From a bacterium (GTDB lineage Bacteria > Vulcanimicrobiota > Vulcanimicrobiia > Vulcanimicrobiales > Vulcanimicrobiaceae): a DNA stretch of 34,870 nucleotides. Positions 117 to 30,423 of the stretch are shown piece after piece (the stretch's first letter is position 1; the number at the start of each line of letters is the position of its first letter). The notes under the pieces are model-generated. The model had not been told where the DNA came from. It searched no databases and worked only from the letters and a program-made list of their open reading frames with translations. A program made the translations under genes and the position numbers. The stretch is taken from assembly GCA_021778415.1 (NCBI GenBank), contig JAJYCL010000029.1, forward strand, positions 1 to 34,870. Direction: 5' to 3'.

Positions 117-707
117 ATGGGGTACGATAACCCGGTGAATGGCGTCAGAAAATTTTTACACGTAGGCACTTTGCTCGTGGCGGCACTTTTCGCCGCTTGC
201 GGTGGACCGACCCACCTCTACGGCAACATCTTTGTTCCCGCGAAAAAAGCCCCGAGCATCGAGCTCGTAGATCAAAACGGACGTGCATTTTCACTCACGG
301 ACGAGCGCGGCAAAGTGGTTGCCTTATATTTCGGTTTTACTCATTGTTCCGACGTGTGCCCTGCTACGCTCGCTCTTCTCGGTAAAGCAGTGCGCGCTTC
401 CGGCGTCGCCTCGCGGACTCGCATTATTTTCGTGAGCGTTGATCCAAAACGTGACACGCCAGCCGCACTCCGTGCGTTCATCCGAAGAGTCGGAGTAACT
501 GCAACGGGACTATCTGGAACCTTGGCACAACTGCAGCCAATTTGGAAAGCCTACGGCGTTAGCGTAGAACCTCATCGATCCGATATCGGACACAGCGACT
601 ACATTTATTATATCGATCCTAGCGGACGGCTTCGCGTTTTGGCGAGCACCTCCGAATCGCTTGCCCATCTTAGCGAAAATTTCCGCAATTTGCTTACGCA
701 TTCGTAA
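117..707 (+). CDS. SCO1/SenC/PrrC-family copper chaperone (lipoprotein)
   Basis: Thioredoxin-fold protein that delivers copper to the CuA centre of heme-copper oxidases or maintains its redox state on the outer face of the membrane. Seen: an N-terminal hydrophobic stretch ending in a lipobox (LFAAC), the CxxxC copper motif CSDVC followed by Pro, the conserved FVSVDPKRDTP segment, and the distal His in GHSDYIYYID. About 196 residues is normal for the family. The start may be ATG 117 or the in-frame GTG 135; the latter gives a more typical signal peptide, and neither has a clear ribosome site. It lies about 500 bp from the end of a CuA-containing oxidoreductase operon on the other strand, its likely client. 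In Nitrosomonas norSY-senC clusters a SenC protein accompanies a nitric oxide reductase (known from the literature), which fits the neighbours here. Confidence 0.9.
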   Translation: MGYDNPVNGVRKFLHVGTLLVAALFAACGGPTHLYGNIFVPAKKAPSIELVDQNGRAFSLTDERGKVVALYFGFTHCSDVCPATLALLGKAVRASGVASRTRIIFVSVDPKRDTPAALRAFIRRVGVTATGLSGTLAQLQPIWKAYGVSVEPHRSDIGHSDYIYYIDPSGRLRVLASTSESLAHLSENFRNLLTHS

Positions 708-1225: not shown

Positions 1226-1966
1226 CTATAGAGTTTCGATATATGCCGCTACATCGCGAACATCGGATCGCGTTAAAACCGCAGGATAGAACTTCGGCAT
1301 AGGAGGGCTCGGATTCATGATCCACTGTTGAGCCTGGGCGAAATTTTTTCGGCTTTTCTCTGCAATGAGCGACGGCCCCTCACCTCCAACACCGTGCGCA
1401 CCGTGACATACGGCACAATTTTGCGCAAACAACTTCCCTCCGAGTGCGAGATCGGGAGACCGCAACATCTGCGCCGCAGACGTTGCGGCAGACTGCGCGG
1501 TCGTCCCTGTCGTAACCATCGGCGAAATAGCATGCGCCACACCAAAGCCCCAAGCCGAGGCTACCGCCATAAAGACTACGCTCAAACCCGTAGCCCAGCC
1601 TACCCCGGCCGCATAGCGTTGGCCGGCGTATCCCGTAATAAACCCTAAGCCGAGAATCCCGAGATGCTCAAGAATATGTCCGCTTGCATGACGTTCGTAC
1701 CAGGCATACTCAGACGGCCACATCAAGAGCATTGCGGCAAATGGCGAAAAAACCGCTAACAACAACCAACCATAATGTCCACTCCCAACATCGCGCGACG
1801 GCGTGGCAAGCAACAACGCGGAAAGTAGCCCACCGGCAATGAGTGCGGCGTGAATCAAGTGATGCTGCGGAATGGGGATTTCAACCGCACCACGGACTAG
1901 CGGGATTAGGGCGACAAGCACCGTCAATGCGAGAATGATCCAACCGAGAATTTTCTTTACGCTCAT
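1226..1966 (-). CDS. Membrane-anchored cytochrome c, oxidoreductase subunit
   Basis: A 246-residue protein. The first ~145 residues form about five hydrophobic segments containing His-rich positions (PQHHLIH, HASGHILEH). A periplasmic class I cytochrome c domain follows, with heme motif CAVCH (C184, C187, H188) and a likely Met ligand in PPMPKF (M223). It overlaps the upstream subunit I gene by 4 bp (ATGA at 1963-1966), so it is translationally coupled to it and most likely feeds electrons to the CuA subunit. The six-residue-deep membrane part does not look like a standard cytochrome oxidase subunit III or CtaG-type protein. The His-rich helices could hold additional heme or only mediate assembly; that is inference. 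Confidence 0.8.
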   Translation of the reverse strand: MSVKKILGWIILALTVLVALIPLVRGAVEIPIPQHHLIHAALIAGGLLSALLLATPSRDVGSGHYGWLLLAVFSPFAAMLLMWPSEYAWYERHASGHILEHLGILGLGFITGYAGQRYAAGVGWATGLSVVFMAVASAWGFGVAHAISPMVTTGTTAQSAATSAAQMLRSPDLALGGKLFAQNCAVCHGAHGVGGEGPSLIAEKSRKNFAQAQQWIMNPSPPMPKFYPAVLTRSDVRDVAAYIETL

Positions 1967-3432
1967 GCTGCCACGCTCGTATTCTTGCTTCTCGCTAAGC
2001 GGACCGCCTCAATGATTGCCAACAGAAATCCAAGCAAGAGGATCGCTGCGCCAACAGTTGCGACTCCCGCATAATACGGTCCCGGTGTAGGCTCGGTAGC
2101 GTATCGACGTGGCACGCCATCGGCGCCCGCGATGTAGAACGGAAGCAAAAATAGGGCTCCACCTCCAAACATTCCGGTTCCAATAAGCCAACGCGTCAGA
2201 AGTGATGAAGCGCTGCCGGCTCGCTGTTCAAGATTGACGAATGCCCAACCCATGATAAAGAGTAACACGCCTTCCAATAGGTAGGTGTGAAAATGCGCTG
2301 GCACCCATAATGTGTTATGCAGCTCGATGTTAATTGGAATCGTCGCATCGAGCACTGCTCCTAAGCCACCGACAACCCATCCAATCATTCCCGCAAACAG
2401 AAACATCGACCCTACACTCCATTTCATTCCGGATCGATGCACCAGCATTACACCGCCAAATACCGTCACAACCACAACTGGAATTGCGGCGAGGTAAGAA
2501 GAAATCTCACCAACATATTGAACGAACTGCAACTGCGCAAAATCCATATAAAGATGATGGAAGTAGGCAATGATAACAAAGGTTAGTGTTCCCCACCAGG
2601 CGATTGCTAGCGGAATCGACGTGTGATACGCTCGCTTGGTGCACATTGGTAATCCGACGTATACGCCGGCAACGGCCATGTACATCGTTAAGTTCGCAAA
2701 CGTATGACCGAACTGGTAAATAAGGTTTTTAGCCCAAAGCGGATCGATTGCGACGCTTGGATCAATCCAATGGACGATAAGAGCTACAACAACCAGTAAC
2801 CCGGCCGTTCCGCCGATAAATCCATCGATCGCAGTAATTGCTGCAGCAAACATTTCCGGAGGTGGCGGCTCTTTTCCACTCTGCGTGAATTCGCGATTTT
2901 TAAAAACATAATCAATAGCAAGGATGCCCCGAACTCCGCCAAAACGAGCCAACAATGCACCAAGTATTTGCGCACACCAAATCATAAAGCCAATCATGAC
3001 AAGACTATTACCAATTAACCAGGCTCCTGTTGCCCAATTTGGCCAATATGTTCCAGTAAATGGCAACGGATAGAGCGCAGTCCAAAGGGCGCCGTAATGC
3101 CCCGGAATAACACTGATGATGACACTTGCAACCCCGGCAAGAAAGAATCCATACGCAAGAAATGCTACCCCTTGATTTAGGGGCGTATAGCGACTCACAA
3201 AATACCAGAGAATGCCGAGGCCGGCTATTGCCATCGCCGTGATCATTCCGATACCATGAAGGCTCAGAAGCGAATAGAAGGTTCCGGGATCAATTCCGAT
3301 CCATCCTGCCTGAGCGGCACGCATCGCGATTCCGACAAGTACCATGAGGAAAAATATCCCTAATCCGGTTAACATGTACGTCCACATGACACGTTTTCCG
3401 GCTGACGTATCGGCTATGTTCGTCTGACTCAT
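1963..3432 (-). CDS. Heme-copper oxidoreductase subunit I lacking the active-site Tyr (candidate nitric oxide reductase)
   Basis: A 489-residue polytopic protein with about 12-13 membrane helices. Metal ligands are visible: H59 (SLHGIGM) and H382 for the low-spin heme, H380 for the high-spin heme (AHFHTYLL), and H243, H292 and H293 for CuB (FGHTFAN, YFHHLYMD). In oxygen reductases of types A and B, Tyr sits four residues after the helix VI His and is cross-linked to it; here that position is N247. The type C (cbb3) alternative, Tyr six residues before the HH pair, is V286. Loss of this Tyr is characteristic of nitric oxide reductases. With a CuA subunit and a SenC gene nearby, the best guess is an sNOR-type NO reductase; a divergent terminal oxidase remains possible. 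Overlaps its neighbours by 4 bp on both sides. Confidence 0.85.
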   Translation of the reverse strand: MSQTNIADTSAGKRVMWTYMLTGLGIFFLMVLVGIAMRAAQAGWIGIDPGTFYSLLSLHGIGMITAMAIAGLGILWYFVSRYTPLNQGVAFLAYGFFLAGVASVIISVIPGHYGALWTALYPLPFTGTYWPNWATGAWLIGNSLVMIGFMIWCAQILGALLARFGGVRGILAIDYVFKNREFTQSGKEPPPPEMFAAAITAIDGFIGGTAGLLVVVALIVHWIDPSVAIDPLWAKNLIYQFGHTFANLTMYMAVAGVYVGLPMCTKRAYHTSIPLAIAWWGTLTFVIIAYFHHLYMDFAQLQFVQYVGEISSYLAAIPVVVVTVFGGVMLVHRSGMKWSVGSMFLFAGMIGWVVGGLGAVLDATIPINIELHNTLWVPAHFHTYLLEGVLLFIMGWAFVNLEQRAGSASSLLTRWLIGTGMFGGGALFLLPFYIAGADGVPRRYATEPTPGPYYAGVATVGAAILLLGFLLAIIEAVRLARSKNTSVAA

Positions 3433-3944
3433 TTTACGTCAAAGCCTCCTTGCATTGCGGCATGAGCGATGCCGCAATATTCCAAACAGCGAACGGTGTA
3501 ATGCCCCGGAACCGTAAACGTGACTGCCAAGTGATTGACGTAATCCGGCATAGCCTGTACCTGACTAAATATTTTATCATTGGGACCGTAAATTCCAAAA
3601 CCATGATTGACATCTTTGGATGTAACGTCGAAAACAATCGGCGTATTTAATGGCAGGGTTGATGGCATTGAAAAACTATATTGCTGTGCCACCACAGGAT
3701 AGTGACGAGCGTTTGCATCGGCCTTCGCCTTTTGATACGGAAATTGCGGAACCGTAAACGCGAACACGGCAACTGCTACGATCAGCGTCGTCCAAAGCCA
3801 GTATCGCCGAATAGCGTATCCGGTCGCCGAAACATCGGCTTGCGGGATCGGATCCGACGAACGGTAATTCGCAAGCCAGAGCATCAGCACAATTGCCAAG
3901 CCGGCAACTCCGATGAAAATTTCTAAAACCAATGTACTTTGCAA
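3429..3944 (-). CDS. Heme-copper oxidoreductase subunit II with CuA site
   Basis: A 171-residue protein with two N-terminal membrane helices (about residues 5-25 and 48-66) and a periplasmic cupredoxin domain. The binuclear CuA ligands are complete: a His in DVNHGFGIY, then C-L-E-Y-C-G-I-A-H-A-A-M, giving Cys, the backbone-ligand Glu, Cys, His and Met with canonical spacing. It therefore accepts electrons from a cytochrome c, possibly the membrane-anchored one encoded two genes downstream. It is the first gene of the minus-strand operon and overlaps subunit I by 4 bp. The 157-bp gap to the divergent regulator gene would hold both promoters. Confidence 0.9.
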   Translation of the reverse strand: MQSTLVLEIFIGVAGLAIVLMLWLANYRSSDPIPQADVSATGYAIRRYWLWTTLIVAVAVFAFTVPQFPYQKAKADANARHYPVVAQQYSFSMPSTLPLNTPIVFDVTSKDVNHGFGIYGPNDKIFSQVQAMPDYVNHLAVTFTVPGHYTVRCLEYCGIAHAAMQGGFDVK

Positions 3945-4101
3945 CGAACAATCTCCACAGCAAGCACCCCGGGAGTGAGCATCTACCCATTCGCAGAGTA
4001 CCTGAGCAGGCCTCGAACAAAAGCAACCCGAGTCAATTTACGCGATGAAAAACCGGCGTTGACCAGGTCGTGGCCGAGAACGCAATAAATCCTCCCGGCG
4101 A
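3945..4101. promoter_or_regulatory. Divergent intergenic region with two FNR-type half-sites
   Basis: This 157-bp gap separates the oxidoreductase operon (left) and the DUF2249-CRP regulator (right). It contains GTCAAT at 4032-4037 and TTGAC at 4059-4063. Each equals one arm of the perfect palindrome found at 7273-7288, but neither is part of a properly spaced palindrome. They may be degenerate sites for the neighbouring regulator or chance matches. No convincing -10/-35 pair was identified. Confidence 0.3.
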
Positions 4102-5013
4102 ATGGATGTCAGACAGATTCCGACTATGGAGCGCCACGCCCTCATTTTCTCGCAATTCGACGGCCTTGCCGTCGGCGAGGCGTTGACGCTCATCGTGGAC
4201 CATGAGCCCCGCCCCCTTCGGGCCCAGTTCAACGAGCTTCGCCCGAGAAAATTCATCTGGATGCAACGTTTCCTAGGCAACGCTACCTGGGTTGCAACGA
4301 TTCGTCGCGTCGAGGATACCGGGGCGGAAAACGACATCCCCGCATTCCTCGCTCGCTGCCCAATCATGCAAGGTCTCGCTGCCAACAAGCGGGATTCGCT
4401 TGCGAACCGAGCCACGACGGTCACGATTCCCCGTCATGGAGCGGTCGTAGAGCAGGATCAGGACTGGCCGTATATCGGCCTCGTGCTCACTGGCAGTATC
4501 AGTGCCATTCTGGTTTCTGCGGATGGCCGAGAGCAAACACTCTATGACATTTTTGCGACCGAGGCATTCAACGAAATCAGTCTCTTCGACGGCGGAGCGA
4601 CGATCGCACGTTTCGTCGCGACAACGAAAGAGGCACAAGTCGTGCTCTTACCGGCATCAATGATCGACGAAATGCTCACCGATCGCGTGAGTATCCACGC
4701 CATCGCCTTGCTTGCCGGACAACGCAGTCGCTTGATGATTCAACGTTTCTCCGAACAACTTTCGCGACCGATCATCGCTCGCGTCGCGTCAATGCTTCTC
4801 GCTTTCGCGCAACCGGCTGCCGGCCTGACGCCCGTTCTCGCGACGCTCGAGGGCATGACGCAAGTCCAAATGGCCACGTCGACTGGGACCGTGAAGGAAG
4901 TCTTCAGCCGAGCGCTCGCTGAGCTTGAACTTGCGGGCGCGATTCGCCGCCTCCGTGGCCGCATTACCCATCTCGACCGACGCCTCCTCACAGAAATTGC
5001 TCAATCGCCATAA
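4102..5013 (+). CDS. DUF2249-CRP/FNR fusion transcriptional regulator
   Basis: A 303-residue protein with two parts. Residues ~8-72 are a DUF2249 domain (FSQFDGLAVGEALTL, IVDHEPRPLRAQF), closely resembling the free-standing 78-residue DUF2249 protein at 6950-7186. Residues ~85-205 form a cyclic-nucleotide-binding-like beta barrel, and ~215-295 a CRP-type winged helix. The recognition helix reads KEVFSRAL: E266-x-x-S269-R270 is the FNR/DNR-type combination that reads TTGAT/TTGAC half-sites, unlike the R-E-R set of CRP. Only one Cys is visible (C86), so an FNR-type iron-sulfur cluster is unlikely. Genomic context (NO-reductase-like operon on one side, DUF2249/NnrS-like operon on the other) suggests a nitrogen-oxide regulator of the DNR/NnrR kind. 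The sensing ligand is unknown. Confidence 0.85.
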   Translation: MDVRQIPTMERHALIFSQFDGLAVGEALTLIVDHEPRPLRAQFNELRPRKFIWMQRFLGNATWVATIRRVEDTGAENDIPAFLARCPIMQGLAANKRDSLANRATTVTIPRHGAVVEQDQDWPYIGLVLTGSISAILVSADGREQTLYDIFATEAFNEISLFDGGATIARFVATTKEAQVVLLPASMIDEMLTDRVSIHAIALLAGQRSRLMIQRFSEQLSRPIIARVASMLLAFAQPAAGLTPVLATLEGMTQVQMATSTGTVKEVFSRALAELELAGAIRRLRGRITHLDRRLLTEIAQSP

Positions 5014-5030: not shown

Positions 5031-5342
5031 TTACGAATATCCCAATTGTTTTCGGGCAGCCATCGAAACTCGATCGAGCGACCACGGTGGCTCAAACGTG
5101 ATTGTCACAGTCACGAGGTTGACCCAAGAAATTCTTCCAACGCTTGACCGCACGTCTCTCGCAATCGATTCATGCATGGGGCAACCCGGAACGGTCAACG
5201 TCATGAGAATCTCAACGTCATCGCCATGGACCTCGATCTTATAAATCAAGCCAAGCGAAAGAATGCCAATTCCGAGCTCGGGGTCAATCACGTCATCTAA
5301 GACGGCAACAACTGCTTCTTCACGAGATATTTTATCGTTCAT
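5031..5342 (-). CDS. DUF59/MIP18-family metal-sulfur cluster protein
   Basis: A 103-residue protein matching the MIP18/PaaD/SufT-type DUF59 fold: DPELGIGILSLGLIYKIE followed by MTLTVPGCPMH with the conserved Cys. Family members help mature iron-sulfur proteins. Free-standing copies often sit beside DUF2249 and NnrS-like genes in denitrification neighbourhoods (general knowledge). It is the last gene of the five-gene operon, and its ATG overlaps the upstream stop by 4 bp (ATGA, 5339-5342). It could assist a metalloprotein encoded in this region; the specific client is not shown. Confidence 0.85.
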   Translation of the reverse strand: MNDKISREEAVVAVLDDVIDPELGIGILSLGLIYKIEVHGDDVEILMTLTVPGCPMHESIARDVRSSVGRISWVNLVTVTITFEPPWSLDRVSMAARKQLGYS

Positions 5343-5557
5343 GGTTGTTCGATAGTGAAAAGAAAACTCTGATCATCCTGCTCCACGCACGTGTAACGGA
5401 GACCGCGTTCCTCAAGCTCAGGTAAAAGGAACATCGGCCGGCGGTCCATGAGAGCCTCAATTCTATCTCCCGTAGCAAGCCCGTCGCACAGAGTCAAAAT
5501 TCGTACAAGCGGCTCAGGCGGCGCTAGGCCCCGGTTATCAACTCTGATTATATTCAT
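5339..5557 (-). CDS. DUF2249 domain protein
   Basis: A 72-residue protein beginning MNIIRVDNRGLAPPEPLVR. The opening D-x-R-G-L-x-P-P-E-P-L and the later R-P-M-F-L-L-P-E-L-E-E-R-G-L are the hallmark of the PPEP-type DUF2249 domain (also related to the TusA/SirA-like alpha-beta fold). A longer open frame extends upstream to 5716. The start at 5557 was chosen because it yields the family length and overlaps the upstream stop as ATGA (5554-5557). Its function is unknown; it is part of the coupled operon that also contains two other DUF2249 proteins of different sequence. Confidence 0.8.
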   Translation of the reverse strand: MNIIRVDNRGLAPPEPLVRILTLCDGLATGDRIEALMDRRPMFLLPELEERGLRYTCVEQDDQSFLFTIEQP

Positions 5558-6726
5558 GATCCTGTTTTCGCGAAAACGTAGCTTCGCGCAATTTGTCCAA
5601 AGAGCATGACGTAGCACACGCTGCCGGCAAGATAAATGGAAGCGGATAAGGGTAGATACCCCGGCGCCCATGCAAGGCTCGCAGAAGTAGCTAGCGTGCC
5701 AACGAATAATGCACAAAGTGCAATACGTGCGAGAATCTCTGGGATCGCTTTTCCCAATGGAAGCAATGTAATAGCTCCACGCTCACGTGCAAATTGCCAT
5801 GCGAGAAAACCGAGAATTTTCATCGCATAACCTAAGATTGCAATTGCGATCCAACCCATAAGCGCTAAACAAATCAACGATGCCCCAATCGATGACGAAA
5901 AACTTGCACAGAGTAATGCGACAGCGCCGAGAACCCATGAGGCTGCGGCAAAGAGCAAACTGGCGTCGACTTTTTTCCGTAAGCGAGTGGAAAATGTGCG
6001 AAGATGTTGCCAGCACAAAGTGACGGAAATCAGCAGTAAAACGACATATCCTATACGAGCGTACACTCCGACTGCGATCATCGTGGTGCTGGCGATAGCG
6101 ATGAAAAGAGCAAACCGAGAACCATACGCACCGGAATGCGAAAGAGCAAACATTGGAACAAACTTATAGGACAGTGCGACAATGAGGATTGAGGAAAACG
6201 ATAGAAGCATCAGCGCCGCGTGCATCTGCGGAAGCCACGAAGAAAACCCGCCCATCCATCGGAGCAGCATTGTCACTCCTAGGAATACAGCAAGCGAAAA
6301 TGCAGCGACGGCAAGCCCGAATCCCACTGCCAGACGTCGCTCCGCCCGCGCAAGCAAAATGCGTGTACCGATTGCGACAACCCATACCATTGTAGCCAGT
6401 CCGAGAAAAATCGCTGCAAACTCAAATGTCGATGCACCTGAAAAGCCTGCAACGAGAAGTACAAAGCCTACAAAGTAAAGTAGGGCAGCACCGATGGTCA
6501 CGAAGAGCGGAAGCGGTCTGACACGAAAGAGAACGGGCAAGAGTTGGTGACTTGCGGCAACGATTGCCAACACAACAAAAGCCGCATAGGCATGGAGAAC
6601 CGAAAGCTCAGAAACGCCGAATGCGAGCATACAAGAAGCGCTAAGATGTACCAGGATCGCTCCTGAAAGTATTATGATACTCCCCAATGGAGCATCGCCG
6701 GCGCGAAAAGATTCCGAAGCAATCAT
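5554..6726 (-). CDS. NnrS-like polytopic membrane protein
   Basis: About 390 residues and about 12 predicted transmembrane helices. Numbered from M6726, two segments look like internal copies about 123 residues apart: LHAYAAFVVLAIVAASHQLLP (H45, H60) and MHAALMLLSFSS...YKFVPMF (H168). Both have a helix opening with His and ending in a Pro-hydrophobic turn. Such His-helices occur in NnrS and in proteins distantly related to heme-copper subunit I, and NnrS proteins protect against NO stress by affecting cellular iron-dinitrosyl chemistry. I cannot assign the family firmly. The start at 6726 gives an ATGA overlap (6723-6726) with the upstream gene; an earlier ATG at 6750 would overlap it by 28 bp. 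Confidence 0.65.
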   Translation of the reverse strand: MIASESFRAGDAPLGSIIILSGAILVHLSASCMLAFGVSELSVLHAYAAFVVLAIVAASHQLLPVLFRVRPLPLFVTIGAALLYFVGFVLLVAGFSGASTFEFAAIFLGLATMVWVVAIGTRILLARAERRLAVGFGLAVAAFSLAVFLGVTMLLRWMGGFSSWLPQMHAALMLLSFSSILIVALSYKFVPMFALSHSGAYGSRFALFIAIASTTMIAVGVYARIGYVVLLLISVTLCWQHLRTFSTRLRKKVDASLLFAAASWVLGAVALLCASFSSSIGASLICLALMGWIAIAILGYAMKILGFLAWQFARERGAITLLPLGKAIPEILARIALCALFVGTLATSASLAWAPGYLPLSASIYLAGSVCYVMLFGQIARSYVFAKTGS

Positions 6727-6953
6727 CGCGGGGTAAAAAGCACGTGCCATTCATCCGGACGTATTTCAACGGACTCTGCATCGTAGCCGCGTTTATCCAT
6801 AACCCGAAGCAACGGTTTAGGATCAAAAGAGTTGATCAGCAAAAACTCTTGACCTTCTTCGAGACCATACACAACATCCATAATGGCAGCAAATGGCTCC
6901 TCTTTTCGCGCATGGAACGGGCGAACGTCGAGAACCGCCTGTGGTTGTTTCAC
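6723..6953 (-). CDS. DUF2249 domain protein
   Basis: About 76 residues from the GTG at 6953. Key segments are LDVRPFHARKEEPFAAIMD, then LINSFDPKPLLRVMDKRGY and EWHVLF. This is the DUF2249 variant with an N-S-F-D-P-K-P-L core. The GTG start overlaps the upstream TGA (GTGA, 6950-6953), matching the other junctions of the operon; an ATG at 6980 is possible but overlaps the upstream gene by 31 bp. No biochemical role is established for the family to my knowledge. Many members occur with hemerythrins, NnrS and nitrite/NO reductases. Confidence 0.8.
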   Translation of the reverse strand: MKQPQAVLDVRPFHARKEEPFAAIMDVVYGLEEGQEFLLINSFDPKPLLRVMDKRGYDAESVEIRPDEWHVLFTPR

Positions 6954-7186
6954 GCAATTTTCCCGATTTGTACGCGCCATGTTTCCGGGCCCTCTGCAAG
7001 ATAGGTCCACGTGTACATACCGGGATGGTCGGCCTCAATTTCGAAACGCAATGGGCGAGGATCGTGATCATTAATAATGAGCAGCGAGTCACCAATTCGA
7101 AGTGCCGAGAGTCGAGCATGGATCGTTGGATGCTTTTCTCGTGGCAGCAGAATTCTAACGTCCAGTTCGTTGACAGAAACGTCCAT
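6950..7186 (-). CDS. DUF2249 domain protein, first gene of operon
   Basis: A 78-residue protein. Motifs: LDVRILLPREKHPTIHARL, IINDHDPRPLRFEI, MYTWTYLAEGPETWRVQI. This is the R-E-K-H-P / N-D-H-D-P-x-P-L type of DUF2249, the same type that forms the N-terminal domain of the CRP-like regulator at 4102-5013. It opens a run of five genes joined entirely by 4-bp overlaps. The FNR-type palindrome at 7273-7288 lies about 95 bp upstream of its ATG, so it is the likely regulated gene. Confidence 0.85.
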   Translation of the reverse strand: MDVSVNELDVRILLPREKHPTIHARLSALRIGDSLLIINDHDPRPLRFEIEADHPGMYTWTYLAEGPETWRVQIGKIA

Positions 7187-7310: not shown

Positions 7311-7910
7311 ACACGCTGCGCGTGCTCCTCATGCTTCGAGACGCACGCTGCGCGTGCTCCTCAGCATGACAGTAGTCAGCATAGTCACCCTGAGGAGCGA
7401 TGCGAAGCAGCGCGTCTCGAAGGGCCCGTCTCGAAGGGCCCACGGTGCGCGTGCTCGTCATGCTTCGAGACGCACGCTGGGCGTGCTCCTCATGCTTCGA
7501 GACGCACGCTACGCGTGCTCCTCAGCATGACAGTAGTCAGCATAGTCACCCTGAGGAGCGATGCGAAGCAGCGCGTCTCGAAGGGCCCGTCTCGAAGGGC
7601 CCACGCTGCGCGTGCTCCTCATGCTTCGAGACGCACGTTGCGCGTGCTCCTCATGCTTCGAGACGCACGCTGCGCGTGCTCCTCAGCATGACAGTAGTCA
7701 GCATAGTCACCCTGAGGAGCGATGCGAAGCAGCGCGTCTCGAAGGGCCCGTCTCGAAGGGCCCACGGTGCGCGTGCTCGTCATGCTTCGAGACGCACGCT
7801 ACGCGTGCTCCTCATGCTTCGAGACGCACGCTGCGCGTGCTCCTCAGCATGACACAGTAGTCAGCATAGTCACCCTGAGGAGCGATGCGAAGCAGCGCGT
7901 GGCGAAGGGC
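7311..7910. repeat. REP-like palindrome array, 161-bp period
   Basis: Dense array of REP-type units in both orientations (CTTCGAGACGCACGC...GCTCCTCAGCATGAC and its inverse GTCACCCTGAGGAGCG...CGTCTCGAAGGG). A marker segment (GACAGTAGTCAGCATAG, or GACACAGTAG in the last copy) recurs at 7368, 7529, 7690 and 7851, so a 161-bp composite unit is tandemly repeated at an exact spacing. The array ends a few bases from the stop of the minus-strand gene at 7917. The long open frames through it are products of the repeat and not genes. Confidence 0.9.
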
Positions 7911-8333: not shown

Positions 8334-9734
8334 TCACCGGCTTCCACTCGCCACTGATTCGCAACGTTCGAAGTGGGCCGTAAAATGACGTAACGGTGGA
8401 GATTGCCAGACGATTTTCATTCCCGCTATCGCGTGTCGCCGCGCATACACGTCGGCCACTACTTCGCTCACGTAATCGATATGACTCTGTGTATACACAC
8501 GACGGGGAATTGCTAGACGAACCAATTCCATAGGAGCTGTCTTTTCGAGCTGAGTTCCTTCGTCTGTTGTCCCAAACATAACGGTCCCAATTTCGACCGC
8601 CCGAATTCCCCCCTCAAGATAGAGCTCGGCAACGAGCGCCTGGCCCGGAAGCATCGTCGCAGGCAAATGATCGAGCATAGCCCCGGCATCGATATAAATG
8701 GCATGCCCGCCGGGAGGTTGCACGATCGGGACACCACTTTCAGTAAGGCGGCGACCCAGATACGCCGTCGATGCGATCCGATAGTTCAAATAATCCTCAC
8801 GTAAAACTTCGCGCAATCCCGTAGCAATAGCGTCCAGATCCCGTCCCGCTAAGCCGCCGTACGTCGTAAATCCCTCGGTGAGAATAAGTAATCGAGATTC
8901 TGCTTTGGCCAGTACGGCATCGTTGCCAGCCAAGAACCCACCAATATTGACTAATCCATCTTTTTTCGCCGACATCGTGCAGCCATCAGCGTAAGAAAAC
9001 AGTTCGCGAGCGATATCATAGGGCGATGTGGAAGCATAGCCCGCCTCCCGCTCACGGATGAACCAACAATTCTCCGCAAAGCGACATGCATCAATGTATA
9101 ATGGGATACCATGCTCCTGACAGACCGCACGAACATTCTTGATATTAGTCATCGAAACGGGCTGCCCACCGCCGGAATTGTTTGTGATCGTAAGCATGAC
9201 TAAAGGTATTTTAGCGGCGCCGACCTGAGCAATGAGTGCCTGGAGAGCCTCGACATTCATGTTGCCCTTGAATGGAAATGGAATACCCGGGTTGCGACCC
9301 TCCACGCATGGCAGATCTACAGCCACGGCCCCGGTATTTTCGATATTTGCCCGCGTGGTATCAAAATGCGTGTTGTTAGGAACGATATCGCCCGGCTTAC
9401 ATAACGATTCAAAGAGAATACGCTCCGCGGCCCGGCCCTGATGCGTTGGAAAAATATATTGAAATCCAAAAATTTCACGCACCGTCTCCTCGAACCGGAA
9501 AAACGAAGTACTTCCAGCATAGGATTCATCGCCGCGCATTATCGAAGCCCATTGCTCCGCGCTCATCGCACCCGTGCCACTGTCGGTTAAGAGGTCGATC
9601 AAGACATCTTCTGCGCGTAACAAAAATGGATTAAACCATGCCTCAGTAAGAAACCGTCTTCGCTCCGCCTCATTTGTCATGCGAATCGGCTCGACAGTTT
9701 TTATGCGGAAAGGTTCGATAATTGACCGGGGCAT
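8334..9734 (-). CDS. tnaA: Tryptophanase (tryptophan indole-lyase)
   Basis: A 466-residue PLP enzyme of the tryptophanase/tyrosine phenol-lyase family, cleaving a beta-substituted aromatic amino acid to pyruvate, ammonia and the aromatic product. Seen: EPFRIKTVEP, LLTDSGTGAMS, THQGR, NNSGGGQPVSM, the PLP lysine in SAKKD (K258), and RLAIPRRVYTQ. Residues that separate the two activities favour indole-lyase: D125 (FDTT; Thr in tyrosine phenol-lyase), I382 (AVEIG; Arg in tyrosine phenol-lyase) and H450 (RHFTA; Phe in tyrosine phenol-lyase). A clear AAGGAGA precedes the ATG. No tnaC-like leader or permease is present. It is divergent to the MaoC-like gene with only 28 bp between starts. Another aromatic leaving group cannot be excluded. 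Confidence 0.9.
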   Translation of the reverse strand: MPRSIIEPFRIKTVEPIRMTNEAERRRFLTEAWFNPFLLRAEDVLIDLLTDSGTGAMSAEQWASIMRGDESYAGSTSFFRFEETVREIFGFQYIFPTHQGRAAERILFESLCKPGDIVPNNTHFDTTRANIENTGAVAVDLPCVEGRNPGIPFPFKGNMNVEALQALIAQVGAAKIPLVMLTITNNSGGGQPVSMTNIKNVRAVCQEHGIPLYIDACRFAENCWFIREREAGYASTSPYDIARELFSYADGCTMSAKKDGLVNIGGFLAGNDAVLAKAESRLLILTEGFTTYGGLAGRDLDAIATGLREVLREDYLNYRIASTAYLGRRLTESGVPIVQPPGGHAIYIDAGAMLDHLPATMLPGQALVAELYLEGGIRAVEIGTVMFGTTDEGTQLEKTAPMELVRLAIPRRVYTQSHIDYVSEVVADVYARRHAIAGMKIVWQSPPLRHFTAHFERCESVASGSR

Positions 9735-10233: not shown

Positions 10234-10717
10234 GTCGCTCCCACACCGCGGGACCTGCTGATCGAATCACATCGCTTTCAACACGAGCGAACTCAGCGCT
10301 AAGAGCAGAGGCGATCGAATCATCCAGCCCCGATTCTATTGCATCAAAAACCATTTCGTTCTCTAGGCGAATATGATGACGCATAAAATCGGTATAGTTT
10401 GCAATTTCTCGCGATTGTACTACTCGATCGCCGAGTGCCTCCTTTATTTTTACTACGAGATGACGCCCATAAATATGTTCTTCCGACAAGACATGCGGAA
10501 TATCTTGGAAGAATGCGTTCGCAAGTAACTTCGGAAATAAGAAACCCTCTTCTTTCCCGTGGTGATTATCGTCGATAAAAAGAGTGGCAAATAACAAGAA
10601 ATCACTAACTATACGATCAAACAATGCATCGTCACGGCATTTTGCCAATTGATTTTCAACATGATCGAAAACCTTCAATATCACTTCATGCTCATTGCGC
10701 AATTCGGTCAGTTTCAT
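10199..10717 (-). CDS. Hemerythrin-like HHE-domain protein
   Basis: A 172-residue protein with the diiron ligand pattern of hemerythrin: H10 (NEHEVIL), H52/H53 with E56/E57 (DDNHHGKEEGFLFP), H81/H86 (EEHIYGRH), and H114/H115 with E119 (MRHHIRLENEMVF). Such proteins bind O2 or NO reversibly at a diiron site or serve in sensing or iron-nitrosyl repair. It is the last gene of the benzoyl-CoA reductase run and overlaps the bzdQ-like stop by 4 bp, so it is translated with the reductase. A role in shielding the oxygen-sensitive reductase from O2 or NO is attractive but inferred. Confidence 0.85.
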   Translation of the reverse strand: MKLTELRNEHEVILKVFDHVENQLAKCRDDALFDRIVSDFLLFATLFIDDNHHGKEEGFLFPKLLANAFFQDIPHVLSEEHIYGRHLVVKIKEALGDRVVQSREIANYTDFMRHHIRLENEMVFDAIESGLDDSIASALSAEFARVESDVIRSAGPAVWERLIQNQMVEIEK

Positions 10718-11502
10718 GCTGCTGATTTTTCTAGTTTTCGTATACCGAGTAGAGCGGCACCGAGCGCGTTGATCATTTCAGGATTTTCCGGACAGTTCAT
10801 TGGCATTCCAAGCGTATCACTCAGAGAACGTATCATTCCCTCTTGATTCCCCATCCCACCAACAAGCGTAACTTCCGATTCAATACCTATTCTTTTTAGT
10901 AACAACGTTGCTCGTTCGGAAAGCGAATCATGCACCCCACGAAGAATATCTTCAGCGGTTTCGCCTCGGCTTACATGGTTAATAATTTCTGACTCTGCAA
11001 GTACCGCGCAGACGCTAGATATCGTGACAGGAGTATTCCCATTCATGGAGAGCCGTCCCACGTCTTCTAATGGTACTTCCAGATAGTGGGCCGCACGCTC
11101 CACGAAGCCACCAGCTCCGGCGGCACATTTATCATTTGATTTGAATTCCCGGACCCGGCCGTCGGGAGCAAGCTTCATCGCACGCGAACTTTGTGCCCCG
11201 ATATCTATAACGCACTTCGTGTTCGGAAATGCGTGCATTGCACCGAAGGCTGCAGACGTGACGTCTGTAAGTTGCAAATCACGATCGGGATAACTTGAGC
11301 GACCAAAGCCCGTAGTCGCGACATAACTCACATCAGTACGCAGTGCACCAATTTGTTTTAATGCATTTTCGATATTCGAATCGACGAGATCTATTAGGGG
11401 TGGACGCGTACGAGAACTATACACGGCTAAAATATTCCCCAGGCGATCTACGAGAACGACTTTCGTATGTCGCGAACCAATGTCGACACCAGCGATAATC
11501 AT
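10714..11502 (-). CDS. bzdQ: Benzoyl-CoA reductase ATPase subunit (BzdQ-like)
   Basis: A 262-residue member of the BadF/BadG/BcrA/BcrD ATPase family. Two such subunits bind a shared [4Fe-4S] cluster and use ATP to push electrons to the active-site subunits. Seen: phosphate-binding GVDIGSRHTK, the DIGAQ loop, cluster cysteines C126 (DKCAAGAGGF) and C165 (SSVCAVLAESEI), and the ATP-site GGMGNQ segment. The DIGAQ loop differs from the DMGGQD of its partner, as expected for the second, non-identical subunit. It starts 15 bp after the bzdP stop and overlaps the hemerythrin start by 4 bp. Confidence 0.88.
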   Translation of the reverse strand: MIIAGVDIGSRHTKVVLVDRLGNILAVYSSRTRPPLIDLVDSNIENALKQIGALRTDVSYVATTGFGRSSYPDRDLQLTDVTSAAFGAMHAFPNTKCVIDIGAQSSRAMKLAPDGRVREFKSNDKCAAGAGGFVERAAHYLEVPLEDVGRLSMNGNTPVTISSVCAVLAESEIINHVSRGETAEDILRGVHDSLSERATLLLKRIGIESEVTLVGGMGNQEGMIRSLSDTLGMPMNCPENPEMINALGAALLGIRKLEKSAA

Positions 11503-11517
11503 GTATTCAATCCTCCC

Positions 11518-12309
11518 TCACGAACCACTCGCAGCCAATGCGTGCTCGAGCGCAAACATCGCTGCGCCAATAGCCCCCATATAATGCGAATCCTCGCATA
11601 CGTTAAGTTTCGCCCCAAGCTTCTCTTCGAGCATTTTAACCATGCCGACATTGAGAGAGACGCCACCGGTGAACGTATATTCCGGCTTGAGACCAACGCG
11701 ACGCACTAAGGCAATCGTCCTCGCAGCGATCGCGCTGTGAATACCCCCAAGGATATCCTCAATTTGCTTTCCTTGAGCAACGTACGACATGATATCAGAC
11801 TCGACAAATACAGTGCAGACAGTCGATAACCTGACAGGATTGCGCGCCTGCAGTGACAGCGCCCCAATTTCATCTAAGCGCAAACCTAAGGTATCGGCAG
11901 CTGTGGAAAGAAATCTCCCCGTGCCAGCTGCACATTTATCGTTCATCACAAAATCGGTCACCTCGCCGTTGGCAATGCTTATTCCCTTAGCGTCTTGGCC
12001 GCCCATATCGATAACTGTTGACGTGCCAGGGAAAAGGACGCTCGCTCCTTTGGCGTGACAGGTAATCTCGGTTATTTGAAGATCCCCAAATTCGACTTTA
12101 AACCGACCGTACCCGGTTCCCGTAACGCACAAAACATCGTCGCGGGAAATATTTCCGGCTTGGAGTACCGCTTCAAAACCACGTTCCCCCGCGCGCGTGA
12201 TATTCGCACCAGTTTCACGCAGTGCACGCGCCACGATCTTCCCATTTTCATCTATGAGAACGCACTTTGTTTGCGTTGATCCAACATCGACTCCGGCAGC
12301 GTACTTCAT
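11518..12309 (-). CDS. bzdP: Benzoyl-CoA reductase ATPase subunit (BzdP-like)
   Basis: A 263-residue ATPase with [11 protein letters not shown], the DMGGQDAKG loop, and cysteines C126 ([10 protein letters not shown]) and C165 ([12 protein letters not shown]) for the inter-subunit [4Fe-4S] cluster. It is paired with the homologous gene immediately downstream. Thauera BcrA is much longer (about 430 residues), whereas Azoarcus BzdP and BzdQ are both short, so two short subunits argue for the bzd type. 2-hydroxyacyl-CoA dehydratase activators are similar but usually form homodimers from one gene. Overlaps the bzdO stop by 4 bp. Confidence 0.88.
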
Positions 12310-13574
12310 ACGGTCACCGATTGTCCCTGCGTTGAGCGATGTTCCAAGGATTCGAAAAACGCATCAATCCTATTGCGCATTTGTGCCTCGCTAAAATAGC
12401 GGGGATCCTCTAAGTCCGATTCGACCAGAAGCGTGGGGATTCCACGCTTGGTGAAATATTCGCGCATGTCACCTTGGCCGGCTGAGAAAAGTCGGCAGCT
12501 TTTCACGGAGTGAATAACGAGCGCGTGAGCATCCCACTCTTCGATGTAGCGGCCAATTTGATCATATCGTTGCAGAAAATTTCTGTTTGTTAGGTTCCAT
12601 TCCAGCAAATGACGGGCAATTGATTCAATTGGAGAATCCGGGTCGTGCGTAAAACCGAACTCCCACAAACCACCAACCGTGGAATACGTCGAAGCCACCG
12701 CAATAGCACTCCAACGTGAAAACATATCACGAAATGTTCGCAAATGCGGCCATGGGGGAGGGCCCTCGATCACATATCGGAAACGTTCCTCGGAGAGCGC
12801 ACCAATGCCGGCATTTGCCTTTTCCTGCAACTCCGCATAGGCGGTTTCAAAAAAATCCAACCCTGCTTGCGTTCCTCGCAAACAATACAGAGGTGCCATC
12901 ATGGTTACCGAATCAAAATACGCGTCATACGGGGCGGGGTGCGCTTTTGTAAGATGCTTAATTTTCGACCATAAAGCGCCGGTTTCAGAAGAAAGGCGAA
13001 CCGCCTCTCGAAGGCGATCTTGATCAAGCTTGCGCCCCGTTATTTCTTCACATTGCTCAATAAGTCGGTGCAACTGCGTCGTAACGTATGCAATATCGTC
13101 CTTCGAAGGCTTTCCTGATGCTGTACGAATAAAGGGAATATCTAACTGGAAAATTGGTCGTCGGCTATAATCGGCGAGATGTTCAAACCAATCTAAATAG
13201 ACATTACAGCCAACATAGTTGCAGAGAAGTAACGACGGTTCCGGAATCGTAGCGAAGGGGGTTGTTCTGCCGCCGAAATACATGCCGATATCCGCCTTAA
13301 CGTACGCGCAATTATCGGATGAATAGCCCATAAATTCTGCCGCCTGAATAAACGGCAAGGATTGCTTACGAACGGCGAGTTGCAGGGCATTTACCTCTGG
13401 AAAAACAGGCAGGATATCGAACGCCCTGAGGATTTCCACCGGGTTTCCACCGATAAGAAGATAGGCAGCCGGCAATCCACTTCCGTTTGCCGAGGCAGTC
13501 AATTCGGCATAGTAGTCTCCCATCAGCTCTTTCTGCAGCGTATGGAGATGTCCCTGATACTGCAATTTTTCCAT
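12306..13574 (-). CDS. bzdO: Benzoyl-CoA reductase subunit (BzdO-like, HgdB family)
   Basis: A 422-residue protein of the 2-hydroxyglutaryl-CoA dehydratase D-component family, one of the two subunits that hold the electron-transfer clusters and the ring-reducing site. Candidate [4Fe-4S] ligands are C89 ([18 protein letters not shown]), C118 and C123 (LLLCNYVGC) and C360 ([19 protein letters not shown]). The ADIGMYFGG and NYVGCN segments are typical of BcrB/BzdO. It starts 11 bp after the bzdN stop. No truncation is evident compared with the usual ~430-450 residues. Confidence 0.87.
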
Positions 13575-13585
13575 TTTTCTAACTC

Positions 13586-14767
13586 CTATGCGAACAGCAT
13601 GGACTCGACAAATGTTTCAATCTCGTTTTTGACGCGATCGAACATCCACATTTTTTCTTCGAATTCCAAAAAGAGATTTGGGATGCCGGCCGCCTGCAGC
13701 GCTCGGCGATAGAGAGGATACGCAAACAAAGCAGGCTCGCAAAATTTTGCGCAAAGAACGATAACGGCATCGGCATTGAGCCTGCGAGCCCGATCAATTA
13801 GCATTTGCGACTGTGAGACTCGAAGATCGTGCTTCACAGGCGACGCGACACTCTGGTTTCTATAGCCATCTGCGAGCGCCAGCAACGGATCGGAGACTCC
13901 GGTATCAACATCTCCAATGAGCCAACGACGACCAATGAGAAAATCATCATCGACGACGTAACAACCAGCGTCTTCGACTGCCGAGATAAGATCGATCGGA
14001 GGTTGTTCGCAAAAAGATCCCACTATCAGAATGCGTAGTCGATCACGTGACTTCCCTTCACGTCGCTCAATTGCAGCGAGCGCCTCGACGAGAATTTCCG
14101 CATGCCTTTCGGGTGGTGTGAGATTTCCCACTCGAACCAACGAATACAATTCACTTGTGCGAATAGCGTGCGGGCGCTCTGCGCGCAACCCATAGAGAAG
14201 TCGTATCAATCGACGTATGCGATTATAGAGCGATAAAGATTCTTTGAGCCGGCCAGGGGTTACCGTCGTCCCTGTTATCGAGGCTGCAAACGTAGCTAGT
14301 CGTTCATACTCGCTGCGCAAGTGCATGGCCGCCTCGGGAAGGGCGAAATTCTGCGGGTAATGCAGATATTCGACGGGAGTATTTGGGAAATTTCGCGTGT
14401 AGACGCTAGCAAGATTTCGAGCCGAATCGCAGATCGAATGAAAGACCATGCCATCGATCTCATCAAGCATTCCCGTCATTCCCTGTTCCAAGGTGCTCTT
14501 AATAATCGAGCACACGAAAGATTGGAAGCGCGAATCCGAATGCACGATTTCCAGCCGATTTCCGCCCCCGGCGAGTCCGACCGGCAACGCTCCCGCAGCA
14601 TGAAAAATTTCCACCGGAGTGTAGACCGGAAAACAACCGATTAACTTGCGACCCCGTTCGGCATGTTTCCATGCTACAGCCGGTTCTATTCCGGGAATAT
14701 CGAAAATAGTACGACACTCTTCAATGACCTCTTCGAGATTTCGAGAAGCTGTCGTGGTGATCATCAT
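13586..14767 (-). CDS. bzdN: Benzoyl-CoA reductase subunit (BzdN-like, HgdB family)
   Basis: A 393-residue HgdB-family protein. Key segments are GCFPVYTPVEIFHAAGALPV, C86 (SFVCSIIKS), HSICDSARNLASV (C113) and VLCAKFCEP (C339, C343). The CDSARNL motif followed by N-F-P and YLHYPQN is characteristic of BcrC/BzdN. It pairs with the next gene to make the active-site half of a class I, ATP-dependent benzoyl-CoA reductase, which dearomatises benzoyl-CoA to cyclohexa-1,5-diene-1-carbonyl-CoA. Its ATG overlaps the upstream dehydrogenase stop by 4 bp. Confidence 0.88.
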   Translation of the reverse strand: MMITTTASRNLEEVIEECRTIFDIPGIEPAVAWKHAERGRKLIGCFPVYTPVEIFHAAGALPVGLAGGGNRLEIVHSDSRFQSFVCSIIKSTLEQGMTGMLDEIDGMVFHSICDSARNLASVYTRNFPNTPVEYLHYPQNFALPEAAMHLRSEYERLATFAASITGTTVTPGRLKESLSLYNRIRRLIRLLYGLRAERPHAIRTSELYSLVRVGNLTPPERHAEILVEALAAIERREGKSRDRLRILIVGSFCEQPPIDLISAVEDAGCYVVDDDFLIGRRWLIGDVDTGVSDPLLALADGYRNQSVASPVKHDLRVSQSQMLIDRARRLNADAVIVLCAKFCEPALFAYPLYRRALQAAGIPNLFLEFEEKMWMFDRVKNEIETFVESMLFA

Positions 14768-15807
14768 GCACCTCCGCGAGGCATCGATGGAATGACGATA
14801 GTTCGCAACCCTTCGCCGTTACGCAGGGAATCCAAGCCATCGTTGATATCGGCTAACGAAACGCGACCGGTAACGAGCTCTGCGAGTCGCAATTTACCGG
14901 AGCGCACCAATTCTATAATGCCCGGGTAATCGACTGGTCGGCAGCCTAGGGATCCGCGAATTTCGAGTTCGGAAAACATTATTTTTCCAGCGGGTAAATT
15001 AACCGACTCTGCACTAAATCCAACAACGACGACACGACCGCCTCGACGCACCGAATCTAATGCCGTGCGAATTGTTTGCGGCTTTCCAATAACTTCAAAT
15101 GCCACGTCGCAGCCGCCATCCATCTGGCGACGCACGTAGCGAGCGACGTCGCTCGTGCTGCTTGCGTCGATACAGTGAGCTGCTCCGAATTGTCGAGCGA
15201 GTTCCAGTCGGTCGGAGCGCGTATCGACCGCCCACACCTGCGCTCCAACGGCGGCGGCGACTTGAATAACGTTGATTCCTACCCCGCCGCAACCAAAAAC
15301 TACAACGCGATCTCCGAGCGTTACTTCACCACGACGAATCACCGCATGATACGGAGTCGACACCGCATCGGCGATAAGACATGCTTCTTCTAGCGGCAAT
15401 CCCGCTGGAAGTGCAACAACGTCTTTTTCTAGCACGCATATGAACTCGGCAAATCCTCCATCGATATGATTTCCGAGCATGGTTGATTTTTCGCATAAAT
15501 TTTCGCGACCAAGTCGGCACATGTGGCATTTTCCACATGACAGCACAGCAGGAATCAAAACCGAGTCGCCGATTTTCCACCGTTCACTGCCAACACCGAC
15601 TTCGCTAATGATTCCGGATATTTCGTGCCCTAAAATGAGAGGTGGCTTCGCAAACGTAGGGACGCCGTGATCGAGGTAATGTAAATCGGTGTGACAGATG
15701 CCGCATGCGGCGACCTGAACGACGATTTCTCCAGGACCAGCTTTGGGCATATCCCGATCCTCGACGACAAGTCGTTTTCCCGGGCCATAAAAAATGGCGG
15801 CTTTCAT
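14764..15807 (-). CDS. bzdX: 6-hydroxycyclohex-1-ene-1-carbonyl-CoA dehydrogenase (BzdX/Had-like)
   Basis: A 347-residue zinc alcohol dehydrogenase. Seen: the catalytic zinc site CGICHTDLH (C38) and GHE (H61, E62), the structural zinc cysteines C91, C94, C97 and C105, and the Rossmann motif FGCGGVGINV. Segment IADAVSTPYHAV matches what I recall of Had enzymes. In the pathway it oxidises the hydroxyl introduced by the dienoyl-CoA hydratase, using NAD+. Assignment to this substrate rests mostly on context between the hydrolase and reductase genes; sequence alone would only say zinc-dependent dehydrogenase. Overlaps both neighbours by 4 bp. Confidence 0.82.
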   Translation of the reverse strand: MKAAIFYGPGKRLVVEDRDMPKAGPGEIVVQVAACGICHTDLHYLDHGVPTFAKPPLILGHEISGIISEVGVGSERWKIGDSVLIPAVLSCGKCHMCRLGRENLCEKSTMLGNHIDGGFAEFICVLEKDVVALPAGLPLEEACLIADAVSTPYHAVIRRGEVTLGDRVVVFGCGGVGINVIQVAAAVGAQVWAVDTRSDRLELARQFGAAHCIDASSTSDVARYVRRQMDGGCDVAFEVIGKPQTIRTALDSVRRGGRVVVVGFSAESVNLPAGKIMFSELEIRGSLGCRPVDYPGIIELVRSGKLRLAELVTGRVSLADINDGLDSLRNGEGLRTIVIPSMPRGGA

Positions 15808-16637
15808 CGGCGTGCGCGACGGATTGCAGCATAGTCGGGAGGACGCTTTTCAACAAAGGCCCGCATACCTTCCGCAGTTTCCTGACTTGCAAAATGGGAT
15901 GCAAGCCATTCGCGAGCATGCCCGATCGTGGCGTACCACGATTGATCCTTCCAGTAATTCACCTGACACTGTGTATAGCTTAAACACTGAGGAAACTTAT
16001 CAAGTAACTTATCGCACAGCTCTCGTACCACCGCATCCAATCTCTCGGTTGGCGCGACGCGATTGATGAGGCCCCACTCGAGTGCTTTTTCAGCAGAAAT
16101 CGGCTCACACAAAAACAGCATCTCTCGCGCTCGACGGTCTCCGACCATAATCGGCAGCCATTGCGTTCCCCCGCCAGCTGCGACGCTTCCCACGCGTGTG
16201 CCCACTTGCCGAAACACAGCATGCTCGGCTGCGACCGCGAGATCGCAAGCCATGTTCATTTCATTACCGCCGCCTACGGCCATTCCGTTAATACGAGCGA
16301 TGGTGGGCTTACCCATAGTCCGAATTGCATCGATGCAGTCTTGAAACAAAACCATATATTTCCAAAACTGCTCTGGGCGCTCAACATAGCGCTCGGCATA
16401 TTCCTTCACATCGCCGCCGGTACAAAATGCAACGTTGCCGCTACCTGTGAGCACGACGACTCCTATTTCGTCATCCCACATAGCTCGGCGAAGTGCCTTA
16501 TGCAAATGCTCTAGCGTCTCCGTAGTGTACGCATTGTGAGCATGCGGGCGATTAAAGGTAATCGTTGCCACTCGATCACTCACAGTGTACAGAACGTCTT
16601 CCTCGATGACGCGAACCGGATCCGAAGTTACCGACAT
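15804..16637 (-). CDS. 6-oxocyclohex-1-ene-1-carbonyl-CoA hydrolase-like crotonase (BzdY/Oah-like), short form
   Basis: A 277-residue crotonase. The block FCTGGDVKEYAERY, then NGMAVGGGNEMNM, GSVAAGGGTQWLPIMVG and CEPISAEKA follows the ring-opening hydrolase Oah/BamA closely, as does the late ELCDKLLDKFPQCL with AREWLASHF. Known Oah proteins are, from memory, about 375-380 residues; this one lacks roughly 100, apparently the segment between the CEP-S-A block and the C-terminal helices. MenB-type naphthoate synthases are similar in length and also end in a K-R-x-P-D-like tail, so a different crotonase reaction is possible. It opens the ring to give pimelyl-type CoA if Oah. Starts 3 bp after the dch stop. 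Confidence 0.72.
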   Translation of the reverse strand: MSVTSDPVRVIEEDVLYTVSDRVATITFNRPHAHNAYTTETLEHLHKALRRAMWDDEIGVVVLTGSGNVAFCTGGDVKEYAERYVERPEQFWKYMVLFQDCIDAIRTMGKPTIARINGMAVGGGNEMNMACDLAVAAEHAVFRQVGTRVGSVAAGGGTQWLPIMVGDRRAREMLFLCEPISAEKALEWGLINRVAPTERLDAVVRELCDKLLDKFPQCLSYTQCQVNYWKDQSWYATIGHAREWLASHFASQETAEGMRAFVEKRPPDYAAIRRARR

Positions 16638-16640
16638 GAA

Positions 16641-19833: not shown

Positions 19834-19844
19834 GTAATCTAGCT

Positions 19845-20192
19845 GCTTCGAGACGCTCGCTACGCTCGCTCCTCAGCATGACGGAATGCTGTCACCCTGA
19901 GGAGCGCACAAAGTGCGCGTCTCGAAGGAGCTGTGTTCGCTCCTCATGCTTCGAGACGCTCGCTGCGCTCGCTCCTCAGCATGACGGAATGCTGTCACCC
20001 TGAGGAGCGCACAAAGTGCGCGTCTCGAAGGAGCTGTGTTCGCTCCTCATGCTTCGAGACGCTCGCTGCGCTCGCTCCTCAGCATGACGGAATGCTGTCA
20101 CCCTGAGGAGCGCACAAAGTGCGCGTCTCGAAGGGGCTGCGCTCGCTCCTCATGCTTCGAGACGCTCGCAGCGCTCGCTCCTCAGCATGACA
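19845..20192. repeat. REP-like array, 103-bp period
   Basis: Alternating orientations of the same REP family as at 7311 (CTTCGAGACGCTCGC...CGCTCCTCAGCATGAC and GTCACCCTGAGGAGCGCACAAAGTGCGCGTCTCGAAGG). A marker (GACGGAATGCTG) recurs at 19880, 19983 and 20086, an exact 103-bp spacing. It fills the gap between the convergent SRPBCC-like gene and pstA, where it may act as a bidirectional terminator or 3' mRNA shield. Confidence 0.9.
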
Positions 20193-30285: not shown

Positions 30286-30423
30286 CGTATCTGTCATGCT
30301 GACAAGCGCGTATCTGTCATGCTGACAAGCGCGTATCTGTCATGCTGACAAGCGCGTATCTGTCATGCTGACAAGCGCGTATCTGTCATGCTGACAAGCG
30401 CGTATCTGTCATGCTGAGGAGCG
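30286..30423 (+). repeat. 23-bp tandem repeat, REP-derived
   Basis: CGTATCTGTCATGCTGACAAGCG is repeated at 30286, 30309, 30332, 30355 and 30378 (exact 23-bp steps). A sixth copy starts at 30401 and runs into a REP unit. The unit contains TGTCA-TGC-TGACA, and its GTCATGCTGA is the outer end of a REP element, so it looks like amplification of a truncated REP end. Confidence 0.9.

Follow-up and report, generated by a model that had tools for sequence, protein, structure and literature searches.

The 34,870-nucleotide stretch of DNA analysed here (the window), from an uncultured Eremiobacterota (WPS-2) bacterium whose genome is 95.6% complete, very likely encodes a nitric oxide reductase (NOR) of the sNOR type: a cytochrome c-fed enzyme, most likely built of three subunits, that would detoxify or respire NO. 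The host organism is probably an NO reducer that ordinary annotation has missed. The features on which the argument turns are as follows (positions are those of the window).

117..707, plus strand: SCO1/SenC copper chaperone (PF02630, E=4.7e-30)
1226..1966, minus strand: third subunit, four predicted transmembrane (TM) helices followed by a C-terminal cytochrome c domain (PF13442, E=7e-11)
1963..3432, minus strand: sNOR-type heme-copper catalytic subunit I (NorY-like), 489 aa (PF00115, E=5.5e-42; HCO fold, Z 37.9; Asn clade, 100/100)
2680..2682, minus strand: codon of Y251 (H243+8), invariant (113/113); may belong to an altered proton path
2692..2694, minus strand: codon of N247 (H243+4), where oxygen reductases have their cross-linked helix VI Tyr; Asn in 113/113
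3429..3944, minus strand: CuA electron-entry subunit II (NorS-like), listed with a TTG start (PF00116, E=1e-7; CuA ligands conserved)
3945..4101, no strand: intergenic, presumed promoter region that separates the operon from the divergent regulator (gene layout)
4102..5013, plus strand: divergent regulator, N-terminal DUF2249 fused to a Crp/Fnr type (PF10006, E=9e-20; PF13545; PF00027)
5031..5342, minus strand: PaaD/SufT-like iron-sulfur assembly protein (FeS_assembly_P; PF01883, E=1.6e-19)
5339..5716, minus strand: DUF2249 protein, start probably further in (PF10006, E=1.1e-13)
5554..6750, minus strand: multi-spanning membrane protein, 398 aa (no Pfam or NCBIfam match; cluster 14 with L070, L071 and L091)
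6723..7010, minus strand: DUF2249 protein (PF10006, E=1.2e-17)

The active site of subunit I

The initial annotation had read 1963-3432 as a heme-copper subunit I with an altered active site, and this was borne out: the gene, on the minus strand, is complete (489 aa, ATG start), and its AlphaFold2 model (pLDDT 86.8) has the fold of HCO subunit I (VIA Z 37.9 across 451 residues), while its matches to the NCBIfam oxidase equivalogs lie far under their cut-offs. All six metal-binding histidines that had been reported are present (H59, H243, H292, H293, H380 and H382), and residue 247, four residues after H243, is indeed Asn; it aligns with Y216 of the host's own ba3 oxidase. The position of the alternative Tyr of cbb3 enzymes – in helix VII, six residues before the HH pair – is held by V286, again as first described. 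Subunit I is thus without Tyr at both canonical cross-link positions.

These residues can be set against the signatures of the known types. The A- and B-type oxygen reductases carry Tyr at H+4 (all reference A and B rows do so) and the C-type (cbb3) enzymes carry the helix VII Tyr; neither is found here. An eNOR has Gln at H+4 and a gNOR an active-site Asp, where subunit I has N247 with all of the CuB histidines kept. The active-site Glu of cNOR and qNOR is likewise Asn, and subunit II is of the CuA type, being neither a heme c protein nor fused. The published residue table gives Y for oxygen reductases, N for sNOR, Q for eNOR, D for gNOR and N for CuANOR (PMC8756737, Table A4).

That N247 is not an isolated mutation follows from its presence in all 113 sequences of an alignment comprising the window protein and 112 homologues from many phyla, gathered from genomes of the phylum, plasmids and all species genomes (best 80 of 436 relatives). 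Equally invariant are Y251, H243, H292, H293 and D297, while position 286 is V, I, T or L and never Tyr. An early suggestion that Y290 or Y295 might substitute for the missing Tyr did not survive this comparison: Y290 is replaced by W, F or T in 10 of the 113 sequences and Y295 by Leu in three. Both are therefore non-essential to the family and poor substitutes, and on these grounds we rule them out as catalytic replacements.

Y251, which was missing from the initial annotation, may nonetheless leave a small opening for a substitute Tyr. An alternative reading makes use of it: the enzyme would be a high-affinity oxygen reductase in which the helix VI Tyr is replaced, most plausibly by Y251 one turn on, without the usual cross-link. 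The invariance of Y251 and the intact set of six His and CuA are in keeping with such an enzyme, as is the Nitrosomonas sNOR, which is induced under O2 limitation and has been argued to be a possible high-affinity oxidase (PMC6967387). Yet characterised oxygen reductases have their Tyr cross-linked to a CuB His (PMC3475470), and Y251, eight residues from H243, would lie beyond the known cross-link geometry. Moreover the host genome already holds Tyr-bearing A- and B-type oxidases, and the Tyr-less bNOR (Asn) and eNOR (Gln) are reported to be biochemically characterised NORs (PMC11388526). We regard an oxygen reductase as distinctly unlikely.

The proton path bears on the same question. The B-type (ba3) cytochrome c oxidases share with the window enzyme the HCO fold, a CuA subunit and part of the K-path: measured against the K-path residues of Thermus ba3 (PMC3141039), Y248 and T312 are kept (Y258 and T323), whereas Y237, Y244, S309 and T315 have become N247, V254, V320 and G326. 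The literature credits sNOR with no proton channel; from its residues, a path running by way of Y258/T323 and Y251 to N247 is possible in the window enzyme.

Phylogeny and family assignment

A phylogeny had been proposed as the check on what was then a tentative sNOR reading. In a tree of 55 proteins (IQ-TREE in careful mode; Nitrosomonas NorY absent from the set) the Asn-type rows, the bNOR-like L169 aside, form one clade that includes the window protein (29/29, support 100/100) and is separate from A-type, ba3, eNOR and bNOR proteins. Its members come from the window, other Eremiobacterota, Methylomirabilota, Verrucomicrobiota, Planctomycetota, Deinococcota, Acidobacteriota, Bacillota, Bacteroidota, Thermomicrobium and Ruegeria pomeroyi. 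Subunit I falls outside every Tyr-bearing oxygen reductase group and alongside taxa listed as carrying sNOR: it shares a clade (100/100) with the Ruegeria pomeroyi protein (L036) and that of Methylomirabilis (L068). 'Silicibacter', the earlier genus name of Ruegeria pomeroyi, stands among the sNOR genera of PMC8756737 (Table A4). Two Methylomirabilis species are reported to have one sNOR each (PMC6094997), and the sole Asn-type HCO seen in the Ca. Methylomirabilis genome that we searched belongs to the sNOR clade. This clade, together with the lack of Tyr at either known cross-link position, supports the sNOR reading, and we consider membership of subunit I in the sNOR family to be solid. Support for sNOR as sister to the B family is weak (71/25).

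The Asn at H+4 is also found in the bNOR (qCuANOR) of Bacillus, and the purified enzyme of Bacillus azotoformans bears the same Tyr-to-Asn change (PMC3475470). That the window enzyme is itself such a menaquinol-accepting bNOR is scarcely credible, even though the two have in common the Asn, a CuA subunit and an SCO-type (SenC) gene nearby (PMC3475470). Our bNOR reference – a single row, L169, picked out of Bacillota genomes on the strength of an H-T-A-V-N motif and a length of 568 aa – nests inside the ba3 oxidases, a joint clade of this one bNOR-like row with sNOR is rejected (AU test, p-AU 0.0013), and L169 is the longer protein (568 aa vs 489 aa). It follows that the Tyr-to-Asn change arose at least twice, and one of the lineages in which it did so (bNOR) contains a purified NO reductase.

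The eNORs, CuA-linked and HCO-related, are Tyr-less like the window enzyme and differ in having Gln at H+4 (motif H-G-A/S-Q-Q in L123, L124, L142 and L143) and in forming a separate clade outside sNOR. Two eNOR-type (HGAQQ) genes lie on plasmids of Thermus thermophilus (TTHNAR1; L123, 2321-4006) and Thermomicrobium roseum (L124, 2444-4174), where they are annotated as cbb3-type oxidases; the Thermomicrobium plasmid bears an sNOR-type gene as well (L035). On the plasmids of Ruegeria, Parasedimentitalea and Thermomicrobium (L036, L037 and L035) a formate/nitrite transporter gene stands downstream of subunit I, which suggests a connection with nitrite or some related anion.

Within the clade Methylomirabilota are nested among Eremiobacterota, and L033 and L034, from the same phylum, are placed far off; this branching pattern points to horizontal transfer.

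Operon, regulator and host genome

The CuA subunit that the initial annotation had placed beside subunit I is there (3429-3944, minus strand), with a full and conserved ligand set (H114, C153, E155, C157, H161 and M164), and of 69 loci of the family 57 have a CuA gene immediately upstream of subunit I. The cytochrome c it had mentioned proved to be the gene directly downstream (1226-1966, minus strand). Overlaps of four bases join the CuA subunit to subunit I and subunit I to this third gene, whose product has HHxxH and HxxxH motifs, both invariant, in its membrane domain. Residues 166-246 adopt a cytochrome c fold (Z about 9); a fold search with the membrane half gave no convincing match, the cytochrome c half alone being recognised. 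In relatives a homologue of the third gene immediately follows subunit I, in some cases lacking the heme domain, and in two loci subunit I and the third (membrane) subunit are fused in one frame, with the cytochrome c in L087 (5929-8379) and without it in L097 (5533-7926). Such fusions argue that the third protein is a true subunit, and an enzyme of three subunits is most likely.

The accompanying SCO/SenC was only partly as described: the gene is nearby (117-707), but it lies on the plus strand, opposite to the others, and hence outside the operon. SCO follows the sNOR genes directly only in other sub-clades of relatives (L036, L102-L115). The known sNORs (NorSY) of nitrifiers, Ruegeria/Silicibacter, Deinococcus, Geobacillus and Methylomirabilis resemble the window enzyme in the Asn at H+4, the six His, a short subunit I (about 480-500 aa) and a CuA gene just upstream, and the Ruegeria and Methylomirabilis genes fall in the same clade. 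The window differs in its host phylum, in the gene that comes next downstream (a four-TM cytochrome c subunit rather than senC), and in the strand of its SCO gene.

On the far side of the presumed promoter region is a divergent regulator, a DUF2249-Crp fusion that also adjoins sNOR in L044 and L070 (same phylum); a Crp-like cluster is present in 24 loci. An FNR-type box was considered for this promoter and rejected: 3945-4101 holds no match, and one-mismatch matches across the window do not exceed chance. Beyond the regulator further DUF2249 genes follow, giving three such domains inside 4 kb. DUF2249 genes of Haloferax, a haloarchaeon, are induced during denitrification, and the Thermus DUF2249 proteins DrpA and DrpB have been linked to nitrate respiration (PMC11218638). 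Homologues of the 398-aa membrane protein adjoin sNOR in three relatives (L070, L071 and L091). Its identification as NnrS was discarded, since PF05940 has no match in the host genome and within the phylum matches only in other families.

Elsewhere in the window there are palindromic REP-like repeats (CGTCTCGAAGGGCC / CACCCTGAGGAGCG) at 7312-7910, 19844-20191 and 32321-32540, arranged as tandem arrays with units of 161, 103 and 91 bases, and a perfect 23-base array at 30286-30417. We also note membrane proteins of about 150 aa with the motif HAHxxFVGWLxNLVMGIALWFLP, one beside sNOR (L056, 9416-9859) and one elsewhere in the host genome (L004, 1456-1908; weak PF00115 match); no Pfam family matches them above cut-off.

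The host genome encodes an A-type and a B-type oxidase, both Tyr-bearing; apart from subunit I, its full-length HCOs carry Tyr. A search of this genome found no second NOR, neither cNOR nor qNOR. As candidate partners NirK, NirS and NosZ were sought there and set aside, with no NirK above cut-off and no NirS or NosZ found; NnrS was not found either. The supply of NO would then be external, chemical or by a further route beyond NirK and NirS. The failure to find an internal NO source, taken with the regulator adjoining the operon, could be read as favouring an NO/O2 sensor or a degenerate paralogue, in either case without reduction of NO or O2 at any useful rate. We think this very improbable, given that the metal ligands and the full electron-entry chain are kept across many phyla: relaxed selection would lose them.

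Within the phylum an sNOR homologue occurs in 30 of 149 sampled genomes, about a fifth, permafrost peat and mine drainage being among the sources. Earlier work described respiration in Eremiobacterota in terms of A-family oxidases and a bc complex (PMC6664022), and a mine-drainage study reported denitrification genes to be absent from its two Eremiobacterota MAGs (PMC8357290); the GenBank MAG of the same name as one of these, MAG 15 (matched by name), is L044 and carries an sNOR gene. The sNOR gene is commoner in genomes with NosZ (5/8 vs 25/141, p=0.009; by genus, p=0.04) and much commoner in those with a homologue of the window's benzoyl-CoA-reductase-B-like gene (15/22 vs 15/127 genomes, p=8e-8; by genus 8/12 vs 9/58, p=7e-4). 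Genomes of one phylum are not independent, so these associations are leads and not proof.

The latter gene belongs to a class I benzoyl-CoA reductase-like cluster at 10714-17393 (minus strand), all of whose matches are below equivalog cut-offs: two activase-type subunits, BcrB-like and BcrC-like proteins; next come dearomatising dehydrogenase, oxo-acyl-CoA hydrolase and dienoyl-CoA hydratase homologues, and a TetR-like regulator adjoins the cluster. Beside this aromatic-degradation cluster, at 8334-9734 (minus strand), is an enzyme of the tyrosine phenol-lyase/tryptophanase family, which possibly feeds it phenol or indole. The literature examined holds no mention of benzoyl-CoA reductase together with Eremiobacterota.

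Proposed function and its meaning

Oxygen reductases draw the fourth electron and the proton for O2 splitting from the cross-linked Tyr; the conversion of two NO to N2O requires two electrons only. A site without the cross-linked Tyr would be unable to supply that fourth electron and proton. From the anatomy of the window enzyme and established knowledge of HCOs we infer that electrons would enter at CuA and that NO would be reduced at the heme/CuB site. The donor could be a periplasmic cytochrome c or, directly, the cytochrome c domain tethered in the third subunit; from CuA (subunit II) electrons would pass to the low-spin heme (H59, H382) and on to the heme/CuB site, whose heme is ligated by H380 and whose CuB by H243, H292 and H293. 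There two NO would yield N2O. In a host with Tyr-bearing oxidases and with no NirK above cut-off, no NirS and no NosZ, the enzyme most likely handles external or chemical NO, supplied perhaps by neighbours or by chemical reduction of nitrite. Its role would be detoxification or supplementary respiration, presumably under the control of the divergent DUF2249-Crp regulator.

In favour of NO as the substrate we count the invariant N247, the sNOR clade, the full CuA site, the overlapping operon, the DUF2249 genes, the co-occurrence with NosZ and the Tyr in the other HCOs, all of which are consistent with a NOR. Against it count the failure to find a nitrite reductase in the host, the invariant Y251 and the partial K-path (Y258, T323). 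NO turnover by the window enzyme, as by sNORs generally, is proposed on such grounds: sNOR is a NOR family put forward from sequence, and the literature examined yielded no biochemical characterisation and no purified, assayed member of this clade. The argument that the Nitrosomonas sNOR could be a high-affinity oxidase (PMC6967387) also counts against NO.

A bolder, and rather improbable, extension of the sNOR reading is that sNORs have a rerouted proton path by way of the invariant Y251 and Y258/T323 to the Asn site, so being neither a channel-less NOR nor a standard oxidase, and possibly reduce both NO and O2 with conservation of energy; the Eremiobacterota form would have three subunits and a tethered cytochrome c of its own, and would be used along with anaerobic degradation of aromatics.

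While the sNOR is an enzyme type already known, the three-gene form and the association with a benzoyl-CoA-reductase-like cluster are new, as is Eremiobacterota as a host phylum, though the survey of Murali et al. 2024 may already list Eremiobacterota sequences. Standard annotation labels sNOR as cytochrome c oxidase. The presence of the gene in 30 of 149 genomes means that, in this largely uncultured phylum, N2O production and resistance to NO are likely under-counted. More generally, the repeated change from Tyr to Asn, separately in sNOR and in bNOR, is a natural test of the residue that separates O2 from NO chemistry.
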